DNA of 24,859 bases from a virus. Shown in pieces: positions 1-13,400 of this stretch. A program made the translations under genes and the position numbers. The stretch is from positions 563 through 25,421 of the IMG/VR virus record IMGVR_UViG_3300030116_006859; one strand, given 5' to 3'. The notes under the pieces are model-generated. The model searched no databases. It was given only the letters and a program-made list of their open reading frames with translations, and was not told where the DNA came from. Position 1 is the stretch's first letter. Each line of letters begins with the position of its first letter.

Positions 1-41
1 TGTAACAATTAGTACACAAGTATTATAAATAAATTGTTACA
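1..41. repeat. 10-bp perfect inverted repeat flanking a late-promoter-like box
   Basis: TGTAACAATT at 1-10 and its exact reverse complement AATTGTTACA at 32-41 enclose 21 bases that contain TATAAATA (24-31). It may be an operator over the promoter-like element or a hairpin. It has no U-tract, so a terminator is unlikely. The left edge is the window edge, so the repeat could extend further. Confidence 0.6.
24..31 (+). promoter_or_regulatory. TATAAATA, T4-type late promoter-like element
   Basis: The octamer matches the T4 late promoter consensus read by the gp55 sigma factor, and the same octamer lies before gp25 and gp8 in this window. Here the nearest ATG (46-48) opens a reading frame of only four codons, so its target is unclear. 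It may be inactive, or serve the 49-codon gene further on. Confidence 0.35.
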
Positions 42-50
42 TTATATGAA

Positions 51-196
51 TCTCGACTAGATTTCTCGTATTATACTTGACATCTCGACGAGATAGCACT
101 ATAATAACAGTATACAATTCAATTCTCGACTAGATTTTATGTACGACGATTTTGATCTCGACTATACATATGACTACTCATCGAGTCTCGACGAGG
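51..196. promoter_or_regulatory. Array of five TCTCGACKAGA palindromic operator-like sites
   Basis: Near-identical 11-mers start at 51 (TCTCGACTAGA), 83 (TCTCGACGAGA), 124 (TCTCGACTAGA), 156 (TCTCGACTATA) and 186 (TCTCGACGAGG). The copy at 83 is a perfect odd palindrome (TCTCG-A-CGAGA) and fills most of the spacer of a consensus promoter. Start-to-start distances are 32, 41, 32 and 30 bp, close to three or four helical turns, so the sites would face one side of the DNA. The last two lie inside the coding region of the 139-288 gene. Repressor binding is inferred. Confidence 0.6.
77..105 (+). promoter_or_regulatory. Consensus sigma70-type promoter with operator in spacer
   Basis: TTGACA (77-82), a 17-bp spacer and TATAAT (100-105) match the bacterial consensus in all twelve core positions. 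Transcription should begin near 112 and read into the small gene at 139. The perfect palindrome at 83-93 sits between the two boxes, and another copy lies at 124-134 in the leader, a classical arrangement for repression. Confidence 0.85.
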
Positions 197-288
197 ACTA
201 TGCAGACGCATATGAACACGACGAGAATGAAGAGCATGCACGAGAAAGTACAGACTTTCAAGAACTTGCATACCTGCATTATGCCTGA
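139..288 (+). CDS. Small acidic Asp/Glu/Tyr-rich protein (49 aa), unknown function
   Basis: The ATG lies about 27 bases after the predicted start site of the consensus promoter, and the frame ends in TGA at 286-288, ahead of a strong terminator at 387-423, so it forms a complete one-gene unit. The product begins MYDDFDLDYTYDYSSSLDED and continues with many Glu, Asp, His and Ala residues. It is strongly acidic and Tyr-rich, with no membrane segment or recognisable domain. Highly acidic small phage proteins sometimes act as DNA mimics or host-protein inhibitors, but nothing here proves that role. No clear Shine-Dalgarno is visible. Two copies of the TCTCGAC motif are read in frame as Leu-Asp. 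A TTG-started frame at 152-361 overlaps it and looks like a shadow. Confidence 0.6.
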   Translation: MYDDFDLDYTYDYSSSLDEDYADAYEHDENEEHARESTDFQELAYLHYA

Positions 289-329
289 TGTATTAGTACG
301 AGATTGCAGCTACAAGGAATCAGACTACG

Positions 330-359
330 AGACCCCATTATGGAGGGAAAGTGGGGTCT
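330..359 (+). other. Hairpin AGACCCCA / TGGGGTCT in the 3' untranslated region
   Basis: An 8-bp perfect stem (330-337 with 352-359) encloses a 14-base loop. No U-run follows, so it is not a terminator on its own. It lies between the end of the 49-codon gene and the terminator at 387-423 and could protect the 3' end of the short mRNA. Confidence 0.45.
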
Positions 360-386
360 GAATTCTAGTACGAGAATGAATTAACT

Positions 387-423
387 AAACTCTTGGACGT
401 GGGAAATCCAAGAGTTTTTTTTT
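387..423 (+). terminator. Rho-independent terminator
   Basis: AAACTCTTGGA (387-397) pairs perfectly with TCCAAGAGTTT (407-417) around a 9-base loop, and the stem runs into nine consecutive T residues (415-423). It ends the unit of the 49-codon gene. On the opposite strand it could weakly terminate the leftward gene at 442-594, although the U-run there is poor. Confidence 0.9.
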
Positions 424-428
424 ATGTG

Positions 429-452
429 TGTGCCAGTTCGTTTATTGGCACA
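429..452. promoter_or_regulatory. 24-bp inverted repeat TGTGCCA-N10-TGGCACA (copy 1)
   Basis: This is a perfect 7-bp inverted repeat with a 10-bp centre. It has the same geometry as the copies at 655-678 and 781-804. It overlaps the stop codon (442-444) of the leftward gene. It could be an operator or, as RNA, a short hairpin. Confidence 0.6.
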
Positions 453-594
453 TGTCCTCGAATCTGATCTGAGCACGATGGGCAGCGACTGCTTGGGTGG
501 TATCTTTATTAATATCATAACCTTGTTGCTCTAATTCGCATAGGCACTCATCGAACAAATCTTCCATAATCATTTCATTTTGGAGTGTAGACAT
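442..594 (-). CDS. Small acidic protein (50 aa), leftward, unknown function
   Basis: This is the only gene in the window placed on the minus strand. The product begins MSTLQNEMIMEDLFDECLCE and ends RFEDMCQ. It is acidic and probably helical, with no motif I recognise. The ATG at 594-592 is preceded by AGGA at good distance, which supports this start. A longer reading of the frame, back to 759, would run through promoter-like and operator-like DNA and is rejected. A minus-strand -10 box at 689-684 lies upstream, and a TGTGACA-N10-TGGCACA site (655-678) overlaps the expected transcription start, so repression at that site is plausible. It is divergent from the Api92-like gene at 916. Confidence 0.6.
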   Translation of the reverse strand: MSTLQNEMIMEDLFDECLCELEQQGYDINKDTTQAVAAHRAQIRFEDMCQ

Positions 595-654
595 TTTTGG
601 TTCCTGTAACGTTATTTTTAAGTTAGCATCGATCCTTGGAGAATGGGAATCTAA

Positions 655-678
655 TGTGACACTAATGTGACTGGCACA
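655..678. promoter_or_regulatory. 24-bp inverted repeat TGTGACA-N10-TGGCACA (copy 2)
   Basis: The half-sites are TGTGACA (655-661) and TGGCACA (672-678), spaced exactly as in copies 1 and 3. Its first 12 bases (TGTGACACTAAT) are identical to copy 3. It overlaps the expected start site of the leftward promoter, a typical repressor position. Confidence 0.65.
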
Positions 679-683
679 ACGAA

Positions 684-711
684 TTATAATTGCGCGGGAG
701 GAGTGTCGAAA
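684..711 (-). promoter_or_regulatory. Candidate leftward promoter for the 442-594 gene
   Basis: On the minus strand, TATAAT occupies 689-684. A weak -35 candidate, TTTCGA or TTCGAC, lies 15-16 bp upstream (about 711-705). The -10 is perfect but the -35 is poor, so the assignment depends mainly on position relative to the small leftward gene. Confidence 0.45.
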
Positions 712-780
712 GTTTAGAATCAGTCCTACCCCAGACCTATTACTAGTATTACTGCACATCTAATTGGATTCAAGTTAGAT

Positions 781-804
781 TGTGACACTAATAATATTGG
801 CACA
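781..804. promoter_or_regulatory. 24-bp inverted repeat TGTGACA-N10-TGGCACA (copy 3)
   Basis: The half-sites are TGTGACA (781-787) and TGGCACA (798-804). Its centre lies roughly 53 bp before the expected start site of the rightward promoter with -10 at 834-839. That promoter lacks a good -35, so this site could bind an activator. The stretch 595-915 has no convincing gene of its own: it holds the leftward promoter, copies 2 and 3, and the rightward promoter and leader. Confidence 0.65.
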
Positions 805-833
805 CTGACACTACTACTCGTGGCGATAGGCAT

Positions 834-839
834 TATAAT
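834..839 (+). promoter_or_regulatory. -10 box TATAAT of the Api92-like gene, weak -35
   Basis: A perfect TATAAT lies 76 bases before the ATG at 916. No good -35 stands at 16-19 bp; the nearest TTGACA-like hexamer, CTGACA (805-810), is 23 bp away. The long leader ends in a pyrimidine stretch (TCCTTTATTCCC) like the other first genes of this region. Dependence on an activator at 781-804 is inferred. Confidence 0.5.
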
Positions 840-915
840 AGACATATGAGGTTCTTAATTAGACTTGGTAAACAAGTTAGGATAGAATCTCAAGTCCTTT
901 ATTCCCTTTTCACTT

Positions 916-1374
916 ATGCCAAATTGGTGCAGAAACAGAGTTGATGTTTACTCAGAAAACAAAACTGACTTGCAGAAGGTGTTGGACATCTTTAGTAACA
1001 AAAATGTATTCGCACAGATTATCCCCGAACCAAACTGGGCAAAGATTCCTTTTAAAGGAGAACTTCCCAAAGTTCGTGAAATGAAAGCACCGAACGGAAA
1101 GGTAGTTACAACAGTCACAGAATTTTCTGATGGCACACAGGATACCAGATGGTATGACTGGAGACTACAAAACTGGGACACTAAATGGGATGTGCACGAA
1201 GTTGATATTGAGGAGGAAAGATGGAAAGATGAATTAGAATCTTTCCAAGCAACTTTCGATACTGCATGGTCACCACCCGAAGCAATCTGTCGTCGTCTTC
1301 GTGATATGTTCCCGAAGGTTAGCATCTCATGGTTCTATGATGAACCAGGAATGCAGACAGCAGGTTACCTATAG
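916..1374 (+). CDS. Api92/YubB-like (DUF1281-type) protein
   Basis: The 152-residue product begins MPNWCRNRVDV and carries WRLQNWDTKWD (about 82-92), FDTAWSPPEA (114-123) and a C-terminal YDEPG (141-145). This set of motifs is typical of the Api92-like/YubB ferredoxin-like family found in phages and plasmids. Known members share the N-terminal PNWC and the central NWGTKWD-type segment; their function is not established. The start is the only ATG that gives the family's N-terminal PNWC. No Shine-Dalgarno is visible and the ATG follows a pyrimidine-rich leader. It is a single-gene unit ended by the terminator at 1398-1420. The long antisense frame across it (948-1325) is a shadow. Confidence 0.85.
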   Translation: MPNWCRNRVDVYSENKTDLQKVLDIFSNKNVFAQIIPEPNWAKIPFKGELPKVREMKAPNGKVVTTVTEFSDGTQDTRWYDWRLQNWDTKWDVHEVDIEEERWKDELESFQATFDTAWSPPEAICRRLRDMFPKVSISWFYDEPGMQTAGYL

Positions 1375-1395
1375 GACAGTTATATTACTGTCACA
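1374..1395. repeat. Stop-adjacent stem-loop repeat, copy 1
   Basis: GGACAGTT-N2-ATTACTGTCACA overlaps the last base of the stop codon of the preceding gene. It matches 2189-2210 at 20 of 22 positions. GACAGT (1375-1380) pairs with ACTGTC (1387-1392) around a 6-base loop. Its 3' end, TGTCACA, is the reverse complement of the half-site TGTGACA found at 655 and 781. Confidence 0.6.
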
Positions 1396-1397
1396 AT

Positions 1398-1420
1398 ACC
1401 CTCTTCACAGAGGGTTTTTT
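1398..1420 (+). terminator. Rho-independent terminator overlapping next promoter
   Basis: ACCCTCT (1398-1404) and AGAGGGT (1409-1415) form a perfect 7-bp stem with loop TCAC, followed by a run of six T (1415-1420). It ends the Api92-like unit. The TTCACA that would serve as -35 of the following promoter lies in the loop. Confidence 0.85.
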
Positions 1421-1434
1421 ATTGCTATTATAAG
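1404..1434 (+). promoter_or_regulatory. Promoter of the 1458-2187 operon, embedded in the terminator
   Basis: TTCACA (1404-1409) is followed either by TATTAT (1426-1431, spacer 16) or by TATAAG (1429-1434, spacer 19). The start would lie about 20 bases before the ATG at 1458, and the leader carries GCAAATTTCCC as in two other units of this region. A conserved TATAA-plus-GCAA(A)TT layout supports it although the boxes are not consensus. Confidence 0.55.
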
Positions 1435-1457
1435 TATGTAAGCAAATTTCCCACACT

Positions 1458-1736
1458 ATGCCGAAACCCGAAATTCATTTCAGTCCCGCATTTGGAATGG
1501 GGTTCTACATCGCAGAAGATGGAACTCTCATGAGCATGCCAGCAGTTACAGATGTAAATGGTCGCACCACTATGGATATTGACAATGAAATTGCCGTTGA
1601 TGAGTGGGATGACCCAAGTGTTTATTCCCCATCTCATATGATGGTGCTTGCACAGATTATGCAGATCTGCACTCTCAAACGTGACTATGTAAGAATCGGT
1701 TACTATGCCGAAAGATTCGGGAGTGCAGCAAAATGA
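1458..1736 (+). CDS. Hypothetical protein (92 aa), first gene of a four-gene operon
   Basis: The product begins MPKPEIHFSPAFGMGFYIAE and has an acidic middle with IDNEIAVDEWDDPS (about 41-54). It has no domain, signal peptide or membrane segment that I recognise. The ATG follows a short leader containing GCAAATTTCCC rather than a Shine-Dalgarno, like other unit-opening genes here. Its TGA overlaps the ATG of the next small gene as ATGA, so the two are probably translationally coupled. A comparable antisense frame (1428-1637) is a shadow. Confidence 0.7.
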   Translation: MPKPEIHFSPAFGMGFYIAEDGTLMSMPAVTDVNGRTTMDIDNEIAVDEWDDPSVYSPSHMMVLAQIMQICTLKRDYVRIGYYAERFGSAAK

Positions 1737-1861
1737 ATGAGCATACCTACGAAGAAATTCTCAAACTTTATAACGAAGGGGACTTTGACCTCTTCGACTT
1801 AAAGTCCGATCTTTATTACCAACTCTTTTACTCTTACAAGGACGATTATTATGAAACCTAA
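1733..1861 (+). CDS. Very small acidic, Tyr-rich protein (42 aa)
   Basis: The ATG overlaps the stop of the preceding gene (ATGA at 1733-1736), and GGGAG stands at suitable distance upstream. The product begins MNEHTYEEILKLYNEGDFDL and ends YSYKDDYYET. It is acidic, aromatic and probably helical. Its stop TAA (1859-1861) lies 11 bases inside the next gene. The tight overlaps on both sides and the good ribosome site support a real gene that size-limited gene calling would miss. No function can be assigned. Confidence 0.65.
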   Translation: MNEHTYEEILKLYNEGDFDLFDLKSDLYYQLFYSYKDDYYET

Positions 1862-2054
1862 CGGAATTAACATCGAATTGACACCCTGTCAGTATGACTA
1901 CCTATATGAAACCTTAATGGAAGCATACTCAAACGATGTCGCACAGCAAAAGGAATGGGACGTGCAGACATTCGACAATCTAATTGATAATGTCTGTAAT
2001 GGTAAATCTACCATACTATCAAACGATGTCAAGGGAGTATTACATGACACTTAA
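1851..2054 (+). CDS. Hypothetical protein (67 aa)
   Basis: The product begins MKPNGINIELTPCQYDYLYE, contains an acidic and probably helical middle, and ends KGVLHDT. AAGGAC upstream of the ATG is a reasonable ribosome site inside the preceding gene. It overlaps both neighbours (11 bases each side), which marks it as an internal gene of a compressed operon. No recognised family. Confidence 0.65.
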   Translation: MKPNGINIELTPCQYDYLYETLMEAYSNDVAQQKEWDVQTFDNLIDNVCNGKSTILSNDVKGVLHDT

Positions 2055-2187
2055 ACAACAGATTAAAGAATACGTTGACGACCATTACACACATTTCGGA
2101 TTCTATCCCTATGATGTCGAAGTTGATGGGCAAATTTATTCTTATGGTGGTTACTGGGCAATCTTAGAAGATGATAGATTTGACTAG
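2044..2187 (+). CDS. Conserved-looking small phage protein (47 aa)
   Basis: The chosen ATG at 2044 follows AAGGGAG at ideal spacing; an earlier start at 1984 would add 20 residues overlapping the upstream gene and has no such site. The product begins MTLKQQIKEYVDDHYTHFGF and continues YPYDVEVDGQIYSYGGYWAILEDD in pieces that resemble small hypothetical proteins of marine T4-like phages (recalled, not searched). It probably folds as a helix followed by a short beta sheet. It is the last gene of the operon; a stem-loop repeat follows its stop at once. Confidence 0.7.
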   Translation: MTLKQQIKEYVDDHYTHFGFYPYDVEVDGQIYSYGGYWAILEDDRFD

Positions 2188-2188
2188 T

Positions 2189-2210
2189 GGACAGTTGAAT
2201 TACTGTCACA
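2189..2210. repeat. Stop-adjacent stem-loop repeat, copy 2
   Basis: This second copy of GGACAGTT-N2-ATTACTGTCACA starts two bases after a TAG stop; the first copy is at 1374-1395. GACAGT (2190-2195) pairs with ACTGTC (2202-2207). No U-run follows directly. It may be an mRNA 3'-end stabiliser, a partial terminator or a protein-binding site. Confidence 0.6.
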
Positions 2211-2217
2211 CATCGAC

Positions 2218-2252
2218 TTCACAAAACGTTTACCTATCGTTTATAATAGGTA
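2218..2252 (+). promoter_or_regulatory. Promoter of the 2280 gene with a palindrome over the -10
   Basis: TTCACA (2218-2223), an 18-bp spacer and TATAAT (2242-2247) form the promoter. TACCTAT (2231-2237) and ATAGGTA (2246-2252) are perfect inverted repeats with an 8-base centre that straddles the -10. The leader carries AAGCAATTCACCC. Binding of a repressor to the palindrome is inferred. Confidence 0.65.
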
Positions 2253-2279
2253 CATAAGCAATTCACCCTCTTTCCCTAC

Positions 2280-2636
2280 ATGAGACTAATTGAACAGCAA
2301 ATGAACTCAGCAGTTCGTAACAAACAGAACTTCTCCAAGTCTAACACTATGGTTCGTTACGACAAAGCAGAGAACATGAGTTCCGTTTATTTACATGGTC
2401 ATCGTATTGCCGACTACTGCCACACTAAAGGCAAAGCATGGATCAGTTCTTGCGGATGGGAGACTAACACCACTAAGTCCAGACTTAATGCGTTTCTTTA
2501 TGAAGTTGCATACGGTGTGAGCATCTTTCAAAAGAACTGGGAGTGGTTCCTACATGATAACCGCACCACTGCAACAATCGATTTCTATGATCGCATGGTC
2601 GTATTCAGCAAACCTCTTACACTCTCAGCAGTGTAA
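2280..2636 (+). CDS. Hypothetical phage protein (118 aa)
   Basis: The product begins MRLIEQQMNSAVRNKQNFSK, then SSVYLHGHRIADY (about 34-46), then NTTKSRLNAFLYEVAYGVSI (63-82), and ends with a short beta-rich segment. It resembles a hypothetical protein that I recall from marine T4-like phages, in which an N-terminal IEQQM helix and an R-x-YLHG strand are followed by a T-x-SR-NA helix. Function is unknown. It is basic in its first part and might bind nucleic acid, but no known motif shows this. It is a single-gene unit between the promoter at 2218-2252 and the terminator at 2647-2677. The ATG follows CCCTCTTTCCC, with no Shine-Dalgarno. Confidence 0.75.
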   Translation: MRLIEQQMNSAVRNKQNFSKSNTMVRYDKAENMSSVYLHGHRIADYCHTKGKAWISSCGWETNTTKSRLNAFLYEVAYGVSIFQKNWEWFLHDNRTTATIDFYDRMVVFSKPLTLSAV

Positions 2637-2646
2637 ACAATTGTTT

Positions 2647-2677
2647 CAGATGCTCACACTGCGTGGGCATCTGTTTT
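2647..2677 (+). terminator. Rho-independent terminator overlapping next promoter
   Basis: CAGATGC (2647-2653) pairs with GCATCTG (2667-2673). Inside the 13-base loop CAC and GTG can pair further. TTTT follows. The last T is also the first base of the TATAAT of the next promoter. Confidence 0.8.
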
Positions 2678-2682
2678 ATAAT
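2653..2682 (+). promoter_or_regulatory. Promoter of the 2714 gene, embedded in the terminator
   Basis: CTCACA (2653-2658) lies at the edge of the terminator loop, followed by an 18-bp spacer and TATAAT (2677-2682). The 15 bases from the -10 onward, TATAATAACAGTATA, are identical to those of the promoter at 100-114, which supports a shared promoter and start-site design. Confidence 0.7.
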
Positions 2683-2713
2683 AACAGTATAGCAAATTAA
2701 TTCCCTTTCCCAA

Positions 2714-2959
2714 ATGAATCCAACAGAAAGAATTATCAAACGCATCCTTGAAGTTGAGAACTTTCAGAACATGGCATGCGTATGTGCTGACTTCGCAGAG
2801 TTTTGTGAAGAGGTTATGGAGTGGGGTGTAGACCACATTGCACAGGTAGAGTTGTTTGATACCTACCGCAGTTTCAGAGACTACACCTTTAACCCTGAGT
2901 TAGACATCAAAAGACTTGATGCGTTCATTGTAGCAGAAAACGGTTACATTCGTTCGTGA
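2714..2959 (+). CDS. Hypothetical protein (81 aa)
   Basis: The product begins MNPTERIIKRILEVENFQNM and is mostly helical and acidic, with three Cys or Phe-Cys positions near CVCADFAEFCEE (about 22-33). No domain is recognised. It is a single-gene unit with its own promoter, a pyrimidine leader (TTCCCTTTCCC) directly before the ATG and a G/C-rich hairpin after the stop. The antisense frame at 2654-2836 is a shadow. Confidence 0.7.
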   Translation: MNPTERIIKRILEVENFQNMACVCADFAEFCEEVMEWGVDHIAQVELFDTYRSFRDYTFNPELDIKRLDAFIVAENGYIRS

Positions 2960-2971
2960 CTACAGCAGTTC

Positions 2972-2992
2972 GGGGGGTTGATGCCCCCCTTA
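2972..2992 (+). terminator. G6/C6 hairpin, probable terminator
   Basis: GGGGGG (2972-2977), loop TTGATG and CCCCCC (2984-2989) form a very stable stem 12 bases after the stop of the 2714 gene. The tail is TTATATAAAA rather than a pure U-run, so termination may be partial. Confidence 0.65.
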
Positions 2993-3041
2993 TATAAAAT
3001 CGCATGACTCCCCTAGTCTACAAAGTGTTACGAAAGGCAGA

Positions 3042-3049
3042 TATAAATT
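3042..3049 (+). promoter_or_regulatory. Possible late-type element TATAAATT before the 3106 gene
   Basis: TATAAATT differs from the late octamer TATAAATA at one base and lies 64 bases before the start at 3106. No good sigma70 -35 pairs with it. The rest of 2993-3105 holds A/T-rich DNA, including TATATAAAA at 3074-3082, and no gene that I can support. Confidence 0.3.
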
Positions 3050-3105
3050 CCACGTCTTAAAAAAAATTTTCGCATATATAAAAACGACGACTAGGTTTTC
3101 ATGAA

Positions 3106-3282
3106 ATGAAAAAAAATTTTGACGAAATTTATTCCACTGTAGAGATCGATCCAGTAACTGACAGATATCATATGACAATTCCCGAAGAAATTGTAAATGA
3201 ATTTGACTGGTATGAGGATCTTGTGTTAAAATGGAATTTAGAAGTCGATGGAATCTATCTCACACTTAAGAAGGATGATTAA
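3106..3282 (+). CDS. Small protein (58 aa), possibly AbrB/MazE-like fold
   Basis: The ATG at 3106 is the first that opens a frame; an ATG five bases earlier stops after two codons. The product starts MKKNFDEIYSTVEIDPVTDR and includes HMTIPEEIVNEFDWYED (22-38) and DGIYLTLKKDD at the end. The strand, IPEEI helix and final beta strand recall small SpoVT/AbrB-like swapped-hairpin proteins in phages, which bind DNA, but this is a pattern impression only. Its stop overlaps the start of the next gene (ATGATTAA), so the two are probably co-translated. Confidence 0.7.
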   Translation: MKKNFDEIYSTVEIDPVTDRYHMTIPEEIVNEFDWYEDLVLKWNLEVDGIYLTLKKDD

Positions 3283-3454
3283 AAGCTATCACATTTACCT
3301 CAACGATAAATGTCTGTTTAAGAATTTAAATGAAGAAGAGTTTGATCTGATATGGAATAAGTTATATACATCATACTGGAGAGAGGAAATTACATACACA
3401 GAAGTGAATGAGATGAGTATGGAAAACTCTACAATATATGAATCTTCTTATTGA
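3275..3454 (+). CDS. Hypothetical protein (59 aa)
   Basis: The start at 3275 is chosen over 3248 because AAGAAGG precedes it and the overlap with the upstream gene is then only 8 bases. The product begins MIKSYHIYLNDKCLFKNLNE and continues EEEFDLIWNKLY, followed by an acidic, Ser-rich tail. It resembles small hypothetical proteins that I recall from T4-like cyanophages. Its stop codon is embedded in the -35 box of the next promoter (TTGACA at 3451-3456). Confidence 0.7.
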   Translation: MIKSYHIYLNDKCLFKNLNEEEFDLIWNKLYTSYWREEITYTEVNEMSMENSTIYESSY

Positions 3455-3479
3455 CAAAAGCTTCTATATAAGTTAGAAT
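3451..3479 (+). promoter_or_regulatory. Strong sigma70-type promoter of the glycosyltransferase operon
   Basis: TTGACA (3451-3456), a 17-bp spacer and TAGAAT (3474-3479) match eleven of twelve consensus positions. The start would lie near 3486, about 14 bases before the ATG at 3500. The TGA stop of the preceding gene is part of the -35. Confidence 0.8.
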
Positions 3480-3499
3480 TGAATTGATCGCAATCTATT

Positions 3500-4276
3500 A
3501 TGGCAAAAGGATTTACAGTAAAAGCAAAGAAACCCGCTGTTCAGAAAAAACCCGAATGGGATTATGAAAGAGCAAAGGAATTAGTAAAAGGTAAGAAAAT
3601 AGTTTTTTGTTTACCAGGTCGAGGAGTATCATACCAATACTTAAAAAGTTTCGTACAATTATGTTTTGATCTTGTGCAATGTGGTGCAAGTATTCAAATC
3701 TCACAAGATTATTCATCAATGGTTAACTTTGCCCGTTGTAAGTGTCTTGGTGCAAACGTTCTTCGAGGACCAAATCAAATTCCATGGGATGGAAAATTGG
3801 AATATGATTATCAACTTTGGATTGACTCTGATATTGTTTTTAATTCAGAGAAGTTCTTTCAGTTATTGTTAGATGCAAATCCAGAAGGAGGAAAAGAAAG
3901 ACATATTGTTGCAGGTTGGTATTGCACCGAAGATGGTAGAACAACCTCGGTGGCACATTGGTTGGAAGAGGACGATTTTCGAACCAATGGTGGTGTGATG
4001 AATCACGAAACCATCGAAAGTATGTCAAAACGCAAGAAACCATTCACCGTTGACTATACAGGTTTCGGATGGTTATTGATCAGAAAGGGTGTATTCGAAG
4101 ACGAAGGATTACCTTATCCTTGGTTTGCTCCAAAGATGCAGGTATTTGAGTCGGGTGAGGTACAGGACATGTGCGGCGAAGATGTCTCGTTTTGTCTCGA
4201 TGCAAAGGAAGCAGGTTTCGAGATCTGGTGTGATCCACGAATTCGTGTCGGACATGAAAAGACAAGAGTTATATAA
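3500..4276 (+). CDS. GT-A-type glycosyltransferase-like protein (258 aa)
   Basis: The likely role is transfer of a sugar from a nucleotide-sugar donor to DNA, protein or glycan; the acceptor is unknown. A Lys-rich N-terminal tail (1-30) precedes the fold. KIVFCLPGRGVSYQYLKS (33-50) is the first strand, ARCKCLG (78-84) follows, LWIDSDIVF (106-114) carries the DxD metal and donor motif (D109, D111), and GFGWLLIRKGVFE (188-200) with CGEDVSFCLDAKEAGFEIW (225-243) gives the acceptor-side ED and the end of the fold, with H252 as a possible metal ligand. This order is standard for small GT-A enzymes. It has no membrane segment, so it should be cytoplasmic. It opens a three-gene operon ending beside the baseplate genes, so modification of a virion protein is possible but unproven. 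No Shine-Dalgarno is visible. Confidence 0.8.
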   Translation: MAKGFTVKAKKPAVQKKPEWDYERAKELVKGKKIVFCLPGRGVSYQYLKSFVQLCFDLVQCGASIQISQDYSSMVNFARCKCLGANVLRGPNQIPWDGKLEYDYQLWIDSDIVFNSEKFFQLLLDANPEGGKERHIVAGWYCTEDGRTTSVAHWLEEDDFRTNGGVMNHETIESMSKRKKPFTVDYTGFGWLLIRKGVFEDEGLPYPWFAPKMQVFESGEVQDMCGEDVSFCLDAKEAGFEIWCDPRIRVGHEKTRVI

Positions 4277-4427
4277 AGTTCGTCGAGGACAGAAGATTCT
4301 TGGTAAGAATCTTACAGAAGAGGAGTACTTTGATTTAATGGAAGATCTTGCTCAAGAGTTTTATGAGGGCAAACTTCCAAATCCTCTCGATCTTACAACT
4401 GAAATACAAAAAGAATATGAAGAATGA
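4254..4427 (+). CDS. Conserved-looking acidic small protein (57 aa)
   Basis: The start at 4254 is preferred to one at 4089, which would add 55 residues read wholly inside the glycosyltransferase gene. The product begins MKRQELYKVRRGQKILGKNL and continues TEEEYFDLMEDLAQEFYEG, then ends with an acidic tail. A basic beta-like start followed by an acidic helix (EYFDLMEDLAQEFYE) resembles hypothetical proteins that I recall from T4-like cyanophages. It overlaps the glycosyltransferase by 23 bases and the next gene by ATGA, so translation is probably coupled through the operon. Confidence 0.75.
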   Translation: MKRQELYKVRRGQKILGKNLTEEEYFDLMEDLAQEFYEGKLPNPLDLTTEIQKEYEE

Positions 4428-5146
4428 GCACATTAATTACGAATTTACCCTCCTATGAGGTATGGGTACGAAAAGAATACTTAACCGATCACAAGAGTGG
4501 TCATGGTGAATTTGTAAAGGGAGTCTGGGTATCTGCAAAAAGTATACCTGGTCGTGCCTTTTATTTTGAAACTTATCTACCTGAGTATGCGGCCATGTTC
4601 GATAAGTTGCCAATTTCTGCGTTTCTCTCGTCTCCAGAAATACCCGATCCTGATATGACTCTTCATAATCTACAGTTTTGGAACTGTATGGACTATGGTG
4701 TAGTTGCCGTTCAGAAGCAGTTTATCGGAAGTATGCACTATGAAGTCTATACAAGAGATTTTGGCAATCAGACGGGCACGTACATATGTACTCTTGACAA
4801 TTATCACTCAGATGTAGACGCAATTGACTACTCAACCAGTGAACAACCTGCCGAACATAAGTCTCATAACCTTCTTGAATTGGACAATGGGCAGTTTTGT
4901 CTCTATCCAAACAACAGAATGAGAATCTATGACAACAGTATCACTCCTGAGACACCTAAGATTCCTGATTTTAAGGTATCAACCGTGTATTATCAGGTGG
5001 AGAACGGTCATGATCGTGATGGATTAGGTTCAGAAGAGAATTATTTTTGGAAAACAGCAAAAGAAAGGTCAGTTGATACGAATGTTGGAGCAGGAAATAC
5101 GGCAACTGGGACTGTAGATGTTAATATTGAACCAGAACTCGGATAA
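4424..5146 (+). CDS. Phage protein of unknown function next to the baseplate genes (240 aa)
   Basis: The product starts MSTLITNLPSYEVWVRKEYL and is rich in Tyr, Trp and Asp. It includes PGRAFYFETYLPEYAAMFDK (about 45-64) and HNLQFWNCMDYGVVAVQKQF (86-105). A Gly/Thr-rich tail starts near residue 210. No catalytic motif, signal or membrane segment is seen. I recall similar proteins upstream of gp25 in marine T4-like phages, annotated as hypothetical. It begins in an ATGA overlap with the preceding gene and ends 17 bases before the late promoter of gp25, so it belongs to the transcription unit of the glycosyltransferase. A structural or assembly role is only suggested by position. Confidence 0.7.
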   Translation: MSTLITNLPSYEVWVRKEYLTDHKSGHGEFVKGVWVSAKSIPGRAFYFETYLPEYAAMFDKLPISAFLSSPEIPDPDMTLHNLQFWNCMDYGVVAVQKQFIGSMHYEVYTRDFGNQTGTYICTLDNYHSDVDAIDYSTSEQPAEHKSHNLLELDNGQFCLYPNNRMRIYDNSITPETPKIPDFKVSTVYYQVENGHDRDGLGSEENYFWKTAKERSVDTNVGAGNTATGTVDVNIEPELG

Positions 5147-5163
5147 TTTTCTTAAAAAAAGGG

Positions 5164-5171
5164 TATAAATA
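5164..5171 (+). promoter_or_regulatory. Late promoter TATAAATA before gp25
   Basis: The exact T4-type late octamer starts 25 bases before the ATG of gp25. By T4 spacing, transcription would begin near 5178, leaving a leader of about 11 bases without a Shine-Dalgarno. The same distance is found before gp8. Confidence 0.8.
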
Positions 5172-5188
5172 AATATAAAACTTGGTTC

Positions 5189-5590
5189 ATGGCAATCAGA
5201 CGGGTATCAAGAGCGTTTAAAGACATAAGTTTATCGTTTAAACCCCATCCAATCACAAAAGATTTACCCATTCTTAAAAATGAGAGGGCAATTAGTCGAT
5301 CAGTAAGGAATATTGTAGAGACAATACCGACTGAAAAATTTTTTAACCCTGATTTTGGGTCTGATGTATATAAAAGTTTATTTGATTTTGTTGATTTTGG
5401 TACAGCAAACATTATACAGAGTCAAATTGAGTCTTCGATTGCAAATTTTGAACTAAGAGTTGATAATGTAAGGGTTGAAGTTGATCCACAACCTGATTTA
5501 AATCAGTTTGAAGTCACTGTAATTTATGATATCGTCGGTCAAGAGTTCCCAACTCAAGAATATTCATTTATATTAGAGGCAACAAGGTAA
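5189..5590 (+). CDS. 25: Baseplate wedge protein gp25 (GPW/gp25 family)
   Basis: This 133-residue protein matches the length and core of T4 gp25, a wedge subunit that binds gp6 and helps trigger sheath polymerisation. The family core is visible as FFNPDFGSDVYKSLFDF (51-67), IESSIANFELRVDNVRVEV (80-98) and a final beta hairpin with EYSFILEATR. T4 has GCDLSDQLFE and NYEPRIDKL at these places. The signature EPR is here ELR (88-90): Glu and Arg are kept, Pro is replaced. The N-terminal 35 residues are phage-specific. It is the first gene of the late unit and ends directly before gp6 (TAA then ATG). Confidence 0.93.
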   Translation: MAIRRVSRAFKDISLSFKPHPITKDLPILKNERAISRSVRNIVETIPTEKFFNPDFGSDVYKSLFDFVDFGTANIIQSQIESSIANFELRVDNVRVEVDPQPDLNQFEVTVIYDIVGQEFPTQEYSFILEATR

Positions 5591-7495
5591 ATGCCTTTCT
5601 CAAATTTTACAAATCTTGATTTCGATCAGATAAAAACATCAATTAAGGACTATTTAAGAGCAAATTCCAACTTTACGGACTTTGATTTTGATGGTTCGAA
5701 CTTTTCTGTCTTAATTGACACTCTTGCATACAATACTTATATCACTGCATTCAACTCAAACATGATTGTGAATGAATCTTTTCTTGATTCTGCCACTTTG
5801 AGAGAAAATGTAGTGTCGTTAGCAAGCAATATTGGATATACACCACGATCTAGAACGGCAGCAAACGCACAAATATCATTTGATGCCAAAGTAACTGATG
5901 ATACAAGCACATTAACCTTAGAACCAGGCATAGTTTGTACTGGAGACGTTGATAATGAGACATATACCTTTGCAATCACCGAATCAATAACTGCGAATGT
6001 TGTTGATGGAACCGCAAAGTTTGAAAATATTAACGTTTATCAAGGAACTTATCTCGAAAAAGAATTTACATATGATGGATCTCTTGATCAAAGATTTATT
6101 TTAGATAATCCCTTCATTGATACATCTAAAATTACAGTTGATGTCAGATTCAGCACTGATAGTGGTGAAGGTATACAATATTCATTAGTAAATGATATTA
6201 TTACTGTTGATTCAGACTCAAAAATATTTTTAATAAAAGAAATTCAGGACGAAAAGTATGAATTAAAATTCGGAGACGGATTTTTTGGTAAAAAATTAGG
6301 AGAAGAAGCAGGTTCAGATGGTAATCTTATTCGAGTCAGGTATCTTACAACAGATGGAGAGGATGGTAACGGTGCTCAAAGATTTACTTTCTCTGGGACA
6401 TTAACAAAATCAAATAATACTCTAGCCAACGCCTCTGTCACATCAGTTACAACCAATGCAAAGTCACAAAATGGTGGAAATATCGAATCTGTAGATTCTA
6501 TCAAGTATTTTTCACCTCTTTTATACTCATCACAGAATAGAGCTGTTACATCGAGAGATTATGAGGCAATAATTAAGAAAATTTACCCAAATACTGAGTC
6601 AGTTTCGGTAATTGGTGGTGAAGAACTCGATCCTCCAGAATTTGGAACAGTTGCGATTAGTATTAAACCCAAAAATGGTGATTTAGTATCTGATTTTACA
6701 AAAAATCAAATTTTATCTAAATTAAAACAATATTCAATATCAGGTATTAATCAAAAAATCATAGATTTAAAGTTATTATATGTTGAACTTGACTCAAATG
6801 TTTATTATAATGATTCTCGTGTCTCAACCGCAGATTCATTAAAAACCGAAGTCGTAAATTCACTAACAACTTACTCAAAATCAATAAATTTAAATAAATT
6901 TGGTGGAAGATTAAAATATAGTAAATTACTTAAAGTTATAGATGATACAAATAATGCAATTACTTCAAATATTACAAAAATTAGAATTCGAAGGAATTTG
7001 CAAATATCTGCAAACCAATTTGCACAGTATGAGCTTTGTTTCGGAAATAAATTTTATGTTGACCCAAACGGATATAATATCAAATCGACAGGATTCACTA
7101 TTTCTGGATATTCGGGGACACTATACTTATCTGATGTTCCAAATTCGGATTTAAAAACGGGGATTATAAGAATTATTAAAATATTAGATGATAATTCAAT
7201 TCGAATTATAAATTCATCAGCAGGTTCAATTGATTATGAAAAAGGAGAAGTGAATTTATCAACTATCAATTTCTTATCAACAACAAAACCAAATAACATA
7301 GTTGAAATACAAGCTTTTCCAAGATCAAATGATGTAGTTGGTCTAAAAGATTTATATATTTCATTAGACGTGTCAAATAGTACAATAAATATGGTTAGGG
7401 ATGTTATTTCATCGGGAGATGAGATTTCTGGAGTACAGTTTACTAGGAATTTTTATTCATCAAGTTATCCAAATGGAAGAATAATTAGAACATGA
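5591..7495 (+). CDS. 6: Baseplate wedge protein gp6 (baseplate J-like)
   Basis: The length (634 residues) is close to T4 gp6 (about 660), which dimerises to form the ring linking the wedges. Visible features are an N-terminal helical part with TLAYNTYITAFNSNMIVNES (about 47-66), the segment VVSLASNIGYTPRSRTAANA (74-93) typical of gp6/J-like proteins, a beta domain with KYELKFGDGFFGKKLG (222-237), and the conserved RAVTSRDYEAIIKKIYPN (about 317-334) followed by a Gly-Gly-Glu turn. The C-terminal 250 residues are beta-rich and less conserved. AAGG lies before the ATG, which abuts the gp25 stop. Its TGA overlaps the start of the giant gene. Family identity is very likely; detailed T4 equivalence is from memory. 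Confidence 0.92.
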   Translation: MPFSNFTNLDFDQIKTSIKDYLRANSNFTDFDFDGSNFSVLIDTLAYNTYITAFNSNMIVNESFLDSATLRENVVSLASNIGYTPRSRTAANAQISFDAKVTDDTSTLTLEPGIVCTGDVDNETYTFAITESITANVVDGTAKFENINVYQGTYLEKEFTYDGSLDQRFILDNPFIDTSKITVDVRFSTDSGEGIQYSLVNDIITVDSDSKIFLIKEIQDEKYELKFGDGFFGKKLGEEAGSDGNLIRVRYLTTDGEDGNGAQRFTFSGTLTKSNNTLANASVTSVTTNAKSQNGGNIESVDSIKYFSPLLYSSQNRAVTSRDYEAIIKKIYPNTESVSVIGGEELDPPEFGTVAISIKPKNGDLVSDFTKNQILSKLKQYSISGINQKIIDLKLLYVELDSNVYYNDSRVSTADSLKTEVVNSLTTYSKSINLNKFGGRLKYSKLLKVIDDTNNAITSNITKIRIRRNLQISANQFAQYELCFGNKFYVDPNGYNIKSTGFTISGYSGTLYLSDVPNSDLKTGIIRIIKILDDNSIRIINSSAGSIDYEKGEVNLSTINFLSTTKPNNIVEIQAFPRSNDVVGLKDLYISLDVSNSTINMVRDVISSGDEISGVQFTRNFYSSSYPNGRIIRT

Positions 7496-10400
7496 TCGAA
7501 ACAGGTATTATAAGTAAAGTTAAGATACAGGACGTATTATCAAATCAACTTCCTAATTTTATTCGGGATGAGAGTCCTGATACGATTGATTTTTTAAAAC
7601 AATATTATATTTCACAGGAATATCAAGGTGGTCCAAGTGATATCTCTGATAATTTAGATCAATATTTAAATGTTGATAATTTAACACCTGAAGTCATAGT
7701 TGATACCTCTACTACAGTTGGTATTACTACCATTGGTGCTGAAATAGTTAAAGTTACTAGCACAAAAGGATTTCCAAATCAATATGGTTTATTAAAGATT
7801 GATAATGAAATAATTACCTACACTGGATCAACTCCAACAAGTTTCACTGGTTGTAAACGTGGATTTAGTGGTATTACTAGTTATCATTCAGATGTAAATA
7901 AAGAAGACCTAGTATTCAGTTCTTCATCCGCAGCAGAGCATGAAGATTCATCTACGGTTCAAAATTTAAGTTCTTTATTTTTAAAGGAATTTTATAAAAA
8001 ATTTAAAACTACTTTTTTACCTGGTTTAGAGCAGGTTGATTTTCAATCAAACTTAGATGTTGGCACATTTATAGGTAAAGCAAGATCATTATATCAAACA
8101 AAAGGAACAGAAGAATCATTTAGAATTTTATTTAATGTTCTGTATGGAATTAATCCAAAATTAATTAATTTAGAAGAAAGATTAGTAAAACCATCATTCG
8201 CAAATTATGTTAGGAGAAGAGTTTGTGTTGCAGAAATATTAGAAGGAAATCCAATAAAACTCAAAGGACAAAGTATATTAAAAGGATTAACAGGACAAAC
8301 ATTATTCAGAAGTGATCTTGACTTAGATATAAATGCGTCAATATCAGACATTGAACCCTTTGAAAGAAGTGGTTCTGGTCTAACTGGAATTACAACTTAT
8401 TATAAAATTGGATTATTTGTTGGTTATGATGAAACTTCAGATATTGAGGGTGATTTTGTAATCGTACCAAACACAAAATCTATAGAGGCAGTATCAGTAG
8501 GATCAAGTGTAATTTCAGTTGATTCTACAATTGGATTTGGTGTGACAGGAATTATAATATCTGGTTCAAATACGATTAGTTACACTGATAAAACTGTTAA
8601 TCAATTTCTAGGTTGCACTGCAACTAGTACAGGTTCATTTAACAGTCCAATTGAACCAACTGCTAATATAAGATCAAACATTACATATTTTGGTTTCGAA
8701 GATGGTGATTTGAATAAGAAGGTTGTTTTAAGACTCACTGGAGTGCTGTCAGAATTTGAGCAGGAGGGTGATTTAGATGTTGAGGAGGGAGAAATTATTT
8801 CAATAAAATCTATCGGTGATAAAGTTGAAAATCCTAAACAGAACAGTTCTTACAAAGAAATATTCTGCAATTCATGGATTTACAATACAAGTTCTTCTTA
8901 TTTTAGTAATTTTTCAGGTTTTTCAGATTCTGAGGATGGTCAATTCAATTTACTAAGTAAAACTGATCCATCAAGTTTAAAGGTAGGTGATTTTGTAGAG
9001 ATAGTTGAAAGAGATAGTAATAAAATTATCAATACTGGTAATACATCTGTAAAAACTATTAATGATAATAACAATATTACACTAGAGGGTGGAACTTTTA
9101 GTGATATAGACATAAAAACAGATTATAAAATAAGAAAAAAATTAAACAAGGCAAGTAGTTCTGGTGCACCAATTGAATTTGGTAATGATGTAATTATTTC
9201 AGATGTTCAAAATGTTTATGTGGAATCGGAAAATGCATATGTCTCATCTAACTCTTTACCATCTTTTGTTAATAATAATTTTGCAGAATTTTCAAAACAA
9301 ATTAATATTAATGTAAATCAAATATCTTTAGACTTGAGTGATACTGATAATACTCTGTCTGGAGATACTGGTGATCAAACTGACTTTTCAACCATAAATT
9401 TTAAAGTTAATCATAATTTTGACACTGGTGATAAAGTATTTTACACTTACACAAATGGTGATTCTCTTGTTGGTCTAGATACTGGAATTTATTTCATTGA
9501 TAAAATTGGAGATAAGAGTATTAGACTGTTTGGATCTCCCTCTGGTATTGCTGATGGAAAGAATATAACTTTTTCAAAAAGTGACAATGATGGAATTCAT
9601 AATTTTGTTTTATTTTCTCATAAATCTGGTGAAATAGGAGCACAAAAATTAATTAAGAAATTTCCTTTAAGTCAAAACTTAAATATTGGAAACAACGATT
9701 CAACTCCAACAGGGCAAATTGGAATGTTGAAAAATGGTGTTGAGATATCTAATTACAAATCAGAAGATAAGATGTTTTTCGGTCCTTTGACTGAAGTGAA
9801 TGTTTTAAATGGAGGAGAAAATTTTGATGTTATTAATCCTCCAATAATATCCGTTTCTTCTGGAATTGGAATCACCGCTTTAGTTCAACCAGTTGTTAGT
9901 GGAAAAGTTGAGGATGTATTTATTGACACGCAATCTTTCGATGTTGACAAGGTTATTTCAATTGGTGTAACTGGAGGAAATGGATCTGGATGTATACTCG
10001 AATCAGTTATTGGAATTAGATTTAGGGAAGAACTTTTTAACGCACAACCAACTACATCTGGTGGTGGAATATCAACTATTGTAACTGGAAATCCAGTATC
10101 TAGAATTACATTCGATAGAGATCACAATTTCATAAATTCCGAACCAATAATTTATGATTCAAATTCGAATCCAGAGGTGATTGTTGGAATTGGAACTAGC
10201 ACTTTAATTAATCAGTCAATATACTATCCTGAAATTGTGAATAGTAGATCAATAAAGTTATACGAATCTCTTTCAGATTTATCATCGGGAATAGGAACAG
10301 TAAAATTTTATGGTGGTTCTTCAGGAAAGCATATATTCAAAGTTGGTCTTCGAAATACATTATTAGGTGTAAATGTAATTGATGGTGGTAAAAATTATAC

Positions 10401-13400
10401 AAATAGGAATTTATTTGTTAAACCTTCAGGTATATCTACATCAGATAATAAAATAAATTTTGTAAATCATGGATTTACAAATGGAGATCTTGTCAATTAC
10501 TCAACGTTAGCAGGACTTGGATCTGATAAACCACAGACGATAAGTGGATTAAGTACATCACTAAGTTATTATATTTTAAAAGATGATGATAATTCATTCA
10601 GATTAGCAAATGCAGGTATTGGTGGAACAATTACAACTAATTTTGAAAGAAATAAAAATGTATCTCTAGAATCTACTGGAACAGGATTCCAATCTTTTTC
10701 TTATCCAGAAATTAAAATTATAGCTAATTTTACCTCTGTTGGTATTGGAACATCACCAGTAGTTAGAGAAATTACTGCAACACCAAAAGTAAGAGGAACT
10801 ATACAACAAACTTATCTTTATGAAACTGGAACAGGTTATGGGTCAACAATTATTAACAACCATAAAAAACCAATCATAACTTTAAAAAATGGTAAAGACG
10901 CATCGATAAAACCTATTATTATAAATGGAAAAATTGATTCTGTAATAATTAACTATGTTGGTCAAGAATATTTTTCCTCTCCAGACCTAGATGTCATAGA
11001 TCCTACAGGTCTAGGAGCTGGTGCTAAACTAAAACCAATCATAGCAGATGGTAAGATCTCTGATGTGCAAATAATAAATGCAGGTATTGGATACTCAACG
11101 AGCACATCTATTAATGTTAAATCGGCAGGACAAAATGCATTTTTTGATTCGAGTGTAAGAGCACTAACATTAAACAAACATGATGGGAATACTAATGAAT
11201 TACTTGAGGAATCTATGAACAAGTTAAAATATTCTTTTACAGGATATTCGACTTCATTATTAGGTAATTCTGGTTTGATAGGATGGGCTTATGATGGAAA
11301 TCCAATATATGGACCTTTTGGTAGTAAAGATCCTCAACAATTATCTCCTTTAGATACAAAACTAAAATCAGGATATAGTAGCAATGATACTAATATAGTA
11401 GATCGACCACCTAATTTTAGTATTGGACATTTTATCGAAGATTTTAAATATGATAATAGTAATGGTGATTTAGATGAGCATAATGGTAGATTTGAAGTAA
11501 CAGCAGAGTTTCCAAATGGAGTTTATGCTTATCATGCAACAATAGATAATCAAAATAAACCAGAATTTCCATATTTTGTAGGAAATACATTTAGATCAAA
11601 ACCAATATCTTTTAACTTTGAAAATAATTCACAAACTAATTTTGATTTTGTCTCAAATAATTTAATTCGAAATACATTTCCATATAAAGTTGCAGACGAT
11701 TTTGCAGAGAATGATTTTATAGTTGAAACAAATGAAATACAAGACCAAAAAATTGAAATCAATTCTATTTCCTCTGGTTCAATTACAGGATTTGATATTT
11801 TATCTGGAGGATCTGATTATAAAGTTGATGAATTTTTAAAATTTGATAATCAAAATACTGAAGGGGATGGATTATTATCGTTTATATCTAAAATCTCAGG
11901 AAAAGAAATTCAATCAATTGATACTACCATAGAAAAAAATGATAACTCAATTATTACTTGGTCGGAAAATCAAATTAATATTTTTACTAATTTAAATCAT
12001 AACTTAAAAAATAATAATCTAGTTAAAATATCAGGATTATCAACAGATATTTCAATATTAAATGATTTATTTAAAATTGGTGTTTCAACATTTACGACAA
12101 CCACTATATCAACAATAACAGCATCACCATCTGCTGGATTCACCACTGAAATATTTGTATCAGAAATACCATCCTCAGTAGCAGTTGGTAGTAGTATTGG
12201 AATCGGTACTGAAACATTAAAGATATTAAACATCTATAGGGACTTAAACATTCTAACAATTCAAAGAGATTTTGATTCTTCTTTTGAAACTATTCATCCA
12301 AAGGGATCGAAAGTAGAATATTTAACAAATAAATTTACAATTAACAAATCAATCCCCTATTTTGATTCTAAAGTAAATCAAAAGGTATTTTTTAATCCAG
12401 CACAATCAATTGGAGTGGGTGGCACTGAAGGACTAGCAACCGAGGTTTCATTTTCTTTTGCAGGACAAGACATTAAGAGAAATATTCCAGCAAAACAAAT
12501 TTTCATTGAGAATCATCCCTTCAAGACTAACCAAAAAATAAAGTTTACAAGACCCGATTCCACTCAAATTTCAATATCAACTGAGAGTGGATCATCACAA
12601 TTTAATTTACCATCGGCACCCGAATTTCTTTATGTTGTGAGGAAAACTCCAAATACGATTGGAATTAAAACTGGAATTGGAAATAATTTTAATGAAGTTT
12701 ATTTTAGAAATATTAATAGTGCTGATAGTGATTTATATCAATTTGAAACAGTTTTTGATCAAGTGATCGGAGATATTGAAAGTATAAAAACTACTGTAAC
12801 AACAACAGAGTCTCATGAGTTGCAAAATAATGATCAAATATCACTTAACTTAAAATCTGATTTATCTGTAGGAATTGGAACATCTATTCATATAAATGTT
12901 TCTAGAGATTCTTCTACGGGCAATGTACTGTTCAATTCAATAGGATTTAATTCTACTGGAATTAATACTTCATCGGATACAATAACAATTCAAGATCATG
13001 GTCTTAAAACGGGAGATAAAATTAAATATGAATCTAATCTTATACCTGAAGGATTAGAAAATAAAAATTATTTTATATACAAGGTTGATGATAATAATGT
13101 TAAATTGTGTGAAACTATTGTAGATGTAAAAAAAGATATACCAAGAATTACTGGAATTGGATCAACAGGTGGAAGCACTCAATCAATATCATTAATTAAT
13201 CCTAAAATTAAATCAGTTAAAAATAATAATTTAGTCTTCAATCTCTCAGATCCCTCATTAACTGGATATGAGTTTAAAATTTATTATGATCAAGAATATA
13301 AAAATGATTTTATATCATCAGGAGAAAGTTCGATATTCAGCATTTCTACATCAGGATCGAATGGATCAGTTGGAGCAGCTTTAACAATTGGATACGGAAG

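Follow-up and report, generated by a model that had tools for sequence, protein, structure and literature searches.

A phased array of near-palindromic sites at a sigma70-type promoter of T4-like cyanophages, a probable multi-site operator

Control regions of the lambda CI/Cro type contain several nearly identical odd palindromes along the same face of the helix, one of which lies in the core promoter. Operators of the ribbon-helix-helix proteins P22 Arc and MetJ are built of short half-sites in repeated arrays, with a site in the promoter core.

Middle promoters of phage T4 combine a MotA box in the -30 region with a sigma70 -10 box (PMC3016281). Cyanomyoviruses are without MotA, AsiA and Alt/ModA/ModB, and their early and middle control has been called unresolved in a review (PMC2984593). 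Promoter predictions for 16 cyanomyovirus genomes were confined to a search for sigma70, T4 late, Pho and NtcA types (PMC3037559), and the paper on cyanophage S-SRM01 names no promoter or motif (PMC8557907). Infection by cyanophage P-SSM2 has been followed by RNA-seq, as stated in PMC7238727. Variable gene regions of T4-like phages contain early promoter/stem-loop (PeSL) cassettes, as named in PMC4503421. The locus presented here has an early-type promoter and hairpins and may be related to such cassettes; a repeated palindrome array does not figure in the cassette description given there. Nothing on the motif in a phage context was found among the 40 of 146 full-text matches listed. In the reading favoured below, with a probability of about 0.6, the array serves T4-like cyanophages as an operator with several sites at an early promoter of the sigma70 type, most likely for a cooperative repressor.

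Array, promoter and gene in the window

The window, the whole stretch of 24,859 nucleotides analysed, covers positions 563–25421 of the 25,421-base viral record IMGVR_UViG_3300030116_006859. An earlier note on this DNA had described five near-identical 11-mers at defined positions and spacings, a TTGACA-N17-TATAAT consensus promoter, a single perfect palindrome inside its spacer, a leader copy and two in-gene copies read in frame as Leu-Asp, and all of these features were borne out (Table 1). Three copies of TCTCGACKAGA are exact and two have one mismatch, with copy-to-copy steps of 32, 41, 32 and 30 bp. The sole perfect odd palindrome (TCTCG-A-CGAGA) is the core copy, whose first base is the base right after the -35 box, and both one-mismatch copies read CTC GAC in the open reading frame. 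The promoter, the 49-codon gene, a hairpin and a terminator form a short single-gene unit. Since a run of 10 N (contig positions 553–562) directly precedes the window, further upstream copies may be missing from it; a near-identical locus, L095, likewise has just the same first copy upstream.

Table 1. Features of the array locus, in window coordinates
Feature	Position	Strand	Remarks
Upstream motif copy TCTCGACTAGA	51..61	+	Exact match; orthologues keep upstream copies at ~31–32 bp steps
-35 hexamer TTGACA	77..82	+	12/12 promoter match
Core copy TCTCGACGAGA, within the spacer and flush with the -35 box	83..93	+	Offset 0/-1 in 46/55 loci
-10 hexamer TATAAT, spacer 17	100..105	+	12/12 promoter match
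Leader copy TCTCGACTAGA, ending 4 nt 5' of the ATG	124..134	+	Exact match
49-codon gene MYDDFDLDYTY...LAYLHYA, acidic, Tyr-rich	139..288	+	ORF; pN/pS 0.32; orthologue alignment
Intragenic copy TCTCGACTATA, codons 6–9	156..166	+	One mismatch; +17 in 39/55 loci
Intragenic copy TCTCGACGAGG	186..196	+	One mismatch; +47/+50/+53 in 38/55 loci
Weak intragenic copy ACACGACGAGA, sixth of the window	216..226	+	Two mismatches
Hairpin 3' of the 49-codon gene	330..359	+	-15.6 kcal/mol, z -3.0
Intrinsic terminator, 11-bp stem, run of T	387..423	+	-13 kcal/mol, z -3.6

Other elements were observed in the surrounding DNA. Dyads of the form TGTGCCAGT...ACTGGCACA occur in the window at 429–452 (a strong hairpin, z -5.6), 655–678, 781–804 and 1372–1395, in P-SSM2 at 66350–66640 and in loci L027 and L058, and are also found between the motif copies of some other arrays. 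A conserved intergenic string, a G-rich stretch followed by GAGTGTCGAA, is present at ~690–708 of the window and ~66497 of P-SSM2, with a similar string in S-SM2; it is possibly a leader or small RNA, and no Rfam match was found near it. Farther downstream, after homologues of gp25 and gp6, a single open reading frame of 4202 amino acids (7492–20100) occupies the place of gp7.

Conservation, layout and codon constraint

Within the window alone the motif is only marginally enriched: 10 matches with up to two mismatches were counted against 5.8 +/- 2.3 expected, and 6 of 100 shuffles reached 10. The case therefore rests on the clustering of exact copies and on comparative data. Exact motif pairs 15–45 bp apart were found on at least 120 IMG/VR viral contigs, against one contig for the reversed motif, a control in which the first copy of the pair was less degenerate. 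The fetched loci contain 500 exact copies in a total of 1.11 Mb.

The first sample, 55 dereplicated loci, had been picked by the motif itself, and conservation was therefore re-tested on a second one fetched by the start of the gene (gene-first), comprising 83 loci after dereplication, each with 220 nt or more of upstream sequence. At least three copies with no more than one mismatch lie within these 220 nt in 80 of the 83 orthologues, and the mean number of upstream copies is 4.6, compared with 0.05 in dinucleotide shuffles. The only gene-first locus without any upstream copy, L294, looks like an array deletion, because far-upstream promoter sequence is joined directly to the ATG there. Both checks proposed in the earlier note, occurrence above chance and presence upstream of the gene's orthologues, thus came out in favour of the motif, and the array is real and much larger than first noted.

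Positions are conserved as well. In the 55 motif-first loci the copy starts cluster near -148, -117, -86, -54, -13, +17 and ~+50 relative to the ATG. The copy near -54 lies directly behind the -35 hexamer, inside the spacer, in 46 of them; when copies were slid along each locus, such abutment occurred in 2.4 loci on average and 8 at most (1000 trials). The leader copy starts 11–16 nt 5' of the ATG in nearly all loci, mostly 38–44 bp from the spacer copy (mode 42). Steps of 31–33 bp, equivalent to three helical turns as the 42-bp mode is to four, account for 78 of 155 adjacent upstream steps, while a minority (13–17 and 22–25 bp) falls off multiples of 10.5 bp; position jitter matched the observed phase coherence in none of 2000 trials. 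The -35 boxes are kept, with 6/6 matches in several loci including the window, and spacers measure 16–18 bp; in several loci the -35 is weak (TTGCAT) and the -10 extended.

Half-sites read TCTCG or TCTAG on either side of the centre, which is A or T in upstream copies but A in almost all copies of the leader and the gene. This C/A variation on both sides and the A or T centre upstream are as expected of sites for a DNA-binding dimer. The flanks are asymmetric: A precedes the motif in 75–100% of copies and T follows it in only 20–75%, irrespective of the central base, and the asymmetry follows the direction of transcription, which counts against the dimer operator reading.

In some loci the copies share a change, ACTCG or GCTCG for TCTCG in L298, L301 and L315 and exclusively CTAG half-sites in L299, as if they drifted jointly with a changing binding protein. 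Type A loci carry, ~150–220 nt 5' of the gene, a conserved divergent promoter-like block, TTGACAAACTGCGCGTCTTATGATACGCTCGCTAAAC, that points away from the array.

The small gene encodes a real protein, as indicated by a mean pN/pS of 0.32 over 3403 pairs of the 83 orthologues. The products are 42–71 amino acids long, start with MYDDYDLDY and end with LAYRHYA, and contain 24% Asp, 20% Tyr and almost no Lys. One representative had no match among PHROG and Pfam families, and AlphaFold gave a single helix at low confidence (pLDDT 63, pTM 0.17). The promoter type suggests that the protein is made early. The in-gene copies, of which a locus has two or three as Leu-Asp codons, force the codon choice: Leu-Asp is written CTC GAC in 67% of 174 cases in the gene, compared with 6% of 296 in other open reading frames, and in 38 of 71 cases in the independent gene-first loci past the searched codons, codon 7 being excluded from this evidence since the search pattern fixed it. 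For the conserved Leu in the C-terminal LAYRHYA, a residue beyond the array, 71 of 79 orthologues use CTT.

Distribution and search for the binding protein

Among named phages, the array and the acidic gene are present in P-SSM2 (PSSM2_098; also in P-SSM5), S-T4 (as an unannotated open reading frame), S-SKS1 and S-SRM01, and they co-occur in all four isolates having them (P-SSM2, S-T4, S-SKS1 and S-SRM01). No array copy was found in S-PM2, S-SM2, S-CRM01, S-RSM4, S-TIM5, S-SCSM1, B23 or T4. S-SM2 keeps the small downstream gene common to many loci and lacks both the acidic gene and the array. A lone match in Syn9, inside the primase gene, and scattered matches in S-SSM7 look like chance. The GenBank record of S-T4 (MH412654) lists the array and genes twice, with ~9.5 kb repeated at 1–9513 and 171570–181082, apparently an overlap left when a permuted genome was assembled.

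Clustered sites form one to three clusters per genome. They are limited to the acidic-gene locus in P-SSM2, S-T4 and S-SKS1; S-SRM01 and related contigs have extra clusters within ~10 kb. In P-SSM2 and S-T4, as in the window, gp25-gp6 follow a few kb 3' of the locus. Of the 181 fetched loci, 60 carry a homologue of gp25, of gp6 or of their neighbour. Arrays without a promoter were seen in L030, L033, L038, L044, L046, L051, L065, L089 and L117 and at 88.1 and 90.9 kb of S-SRM01. They are intergenic, often right after a stop codon; their steps measure 24–33 bp, their spacers are AC-rich, and hexamers resembling a promoter are lacking. Such arrays, among them those of the S-SRM01-like contigs, do not fit a simple promoter operator.

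When ~85,000 genomes of bacteria and archaea were scanned for motif pairs, 36 scattered matches came up, none titled cyanobacteria and most of them coding repeats or GC-rich chance pairs. One of these, L142, resembles a phage-type contig with a 24-bp repeat.

The earlier note took the layout for that of a cooperative repressor or an immunity-like switch. Its operator part is upheld by the conservation and by the fixed promoter offset. Immunity is not: profile searches of nine phage genomes with HTH_3 and RHH_1 gave no match above the cut-off, so that the phage-encoded classical HTH or RHH repressor typical of temperate-phage immunity was not found there. The limitation of the clustered site to one gene in P-SSM2, S-T4 and S-SKS1 and the T4-like nature of the phages also count against an immunity switch.

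Phylogenetic profiles of four phages that have the array, compared with those of five that lack it, yielded no convincing DNA-binding protein. A winged-helix protein (family 20) was rejected as the regulator, S-SRM01 being its sole carrier among the named phages. The small AbrB/MazE-like protein (phrog_661; window 3106–3282) was rejected for its mismatched distribution: its gene lies a few kb 3' of the array in S-T4, S-SRM01 and P-SSM2, but S-SKS1 yielded none and a weak relative occurs in the array-less S-PM2, and a MazE family search of the phages gave no consistent match. The array may be bound by a host protein or by one whose fold escapes recognition. GIY-YIG endonuclease genes adjoin the array in a number of loci; the array as a homing-endonuclease target was rejected because such targets are single sites.

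Interpretation and comparison with known systems

The locus has the conserved near-palindromic sites upstream of orthologues, the fixed core-promoter position and the helical phasing of an operator array. In the proposed mechanism, a sequence-specific protein, probably a dimer, would recognise two TCTMG half-sites that flank a central A/T. Steps of 31–32 bp (three turns) and 41–42 bp (four turns) would set the copies on one face of the helix, so that neighbouring dimers could touch or loop; the helical phasing thus suggests cooperative binding. With the spacer copy behind the -35 box, the start-region copy and the in-gene copies all occupied, the full array would block RNA polymerase and keep the gene for the small acidic Tyr/Asp-rich protein off. 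The spacer and start-region copies point to repression rather than activation.

An activator array, whose bound protein recruits RNA polymerase and stands in for the missing T4 MotA-type middle control, appears unlikely. It would suit phages without motA and asiA whose early and middle control is unexplained (PMC2984593), as well as the loci with a weak -35 and an extended -10. However, the -35 boxes are retained, perfectly so in the window, the 16–18 bp spacers exclude a long spacer of the MerR type, and the motif would sit under the polymerase, with copies over the start region and gene as in repression.

It is quite improbable that the array is primarily an iteron-type element, to which a replication initiator or a protein that organises DNA binds, with transcription control secondary. 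The evenly spaced 12-nt repeats, early promoter and small early genes of T4 oriE near gene 6 (PMC3016281) invite this idea, as do the position of the array 5' of gp25-gp6, the promoterless arrays of some phages and the cumulative GC skew of P-SSM2, which peaks at the array. Homology with oriE was nevertheless rejected, the T4 repeats being a non-palindromic coding repeat of gene 5 with a 24-bp period. GC skew was rejected as an origin marker for its inconsistency, since its extremes misfit in S-SKS1 and S-SRM01 and have the opposite sign in S-T4, and an origin has no need of a rigid -35 offset.

Doubtful, too, is a decoy that titrates a host DNA-binding protein, with the Asp/Tyr-rich product as a DNA mimic of the same target. 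The joint presence of gene and array in four of four isolates and their joint absence from S-SM2, the composition of the product, the failure of profiling and Pfam searches to yield a phage regulator and the ArdA-like anti-restriction genes (phrog_36653) near some arrays would agree with it. Against it stand the weak structure prediction and the lack of any match titled cyanobacteria in the bacterial and archaeal scan for motif pairs. Just as doubtful is the reading in which DNA array and protein together act as a decoy for one host protein instead of an ordinary operator, the array capturing that protein and the product, with its gene itself built from array sites through the Leu-Asp codons, mimicking the protein's DNA site.

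An RNA-level element, with transcript copies acting as hairpins or as sites of a translational repressor such as RegA, is very improbable: the start-region copy in nearly all loci and the flank asymmetry would suit it, but many copies lie 5' of the promoter, the common TCTCGACTAGA and TCTAGTCGAGA variants break pairing within the motif, and the transcript fold is ordinary (z -1.3), for which the hairpin reading was rejected.

The array phages are a large, mostly uncultured and abundant group of T4-like cyanobacterial viruses. With four cultured phages and well over a hundred contigs from the environment carrying it, the array can serve as bait for its regulator, and the locus shows coding sequence bent into carrying regulatory sites.

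Among the known systems, T4 oriE (PMC3016281) shares with the array evenly spaced short repeats, an early promoter, small early open reading frames and a location upstream of gene 6, but the repeats of the oriE region differ in period, in symmetry and in lying inside gene 5. T4 middle promoters also have a sequence element in the -30 region together with a sigma70 -10 box; the array element, unlike that of MotA promoters, is palindromic and multi-copy, and the -35 box is retained.

As in the P22 Arc and MetJ operators, short half-sites are repeated and one site lies in the promoter core, although sequence and spacing are different and no RHH_1 protein was found in the nine phages searched. Compared with the lambda CI/Cro regions, the sites are 11 bp long, occur in four to nine copies reaching into the coding region and belong to T4-like phages, and a search of the array phages gave no repressor gene; what the locus has in common with them is a set of nearly identical odd palindromes that share a helical face, one of them within the core promoter, at a gene that is probably early.
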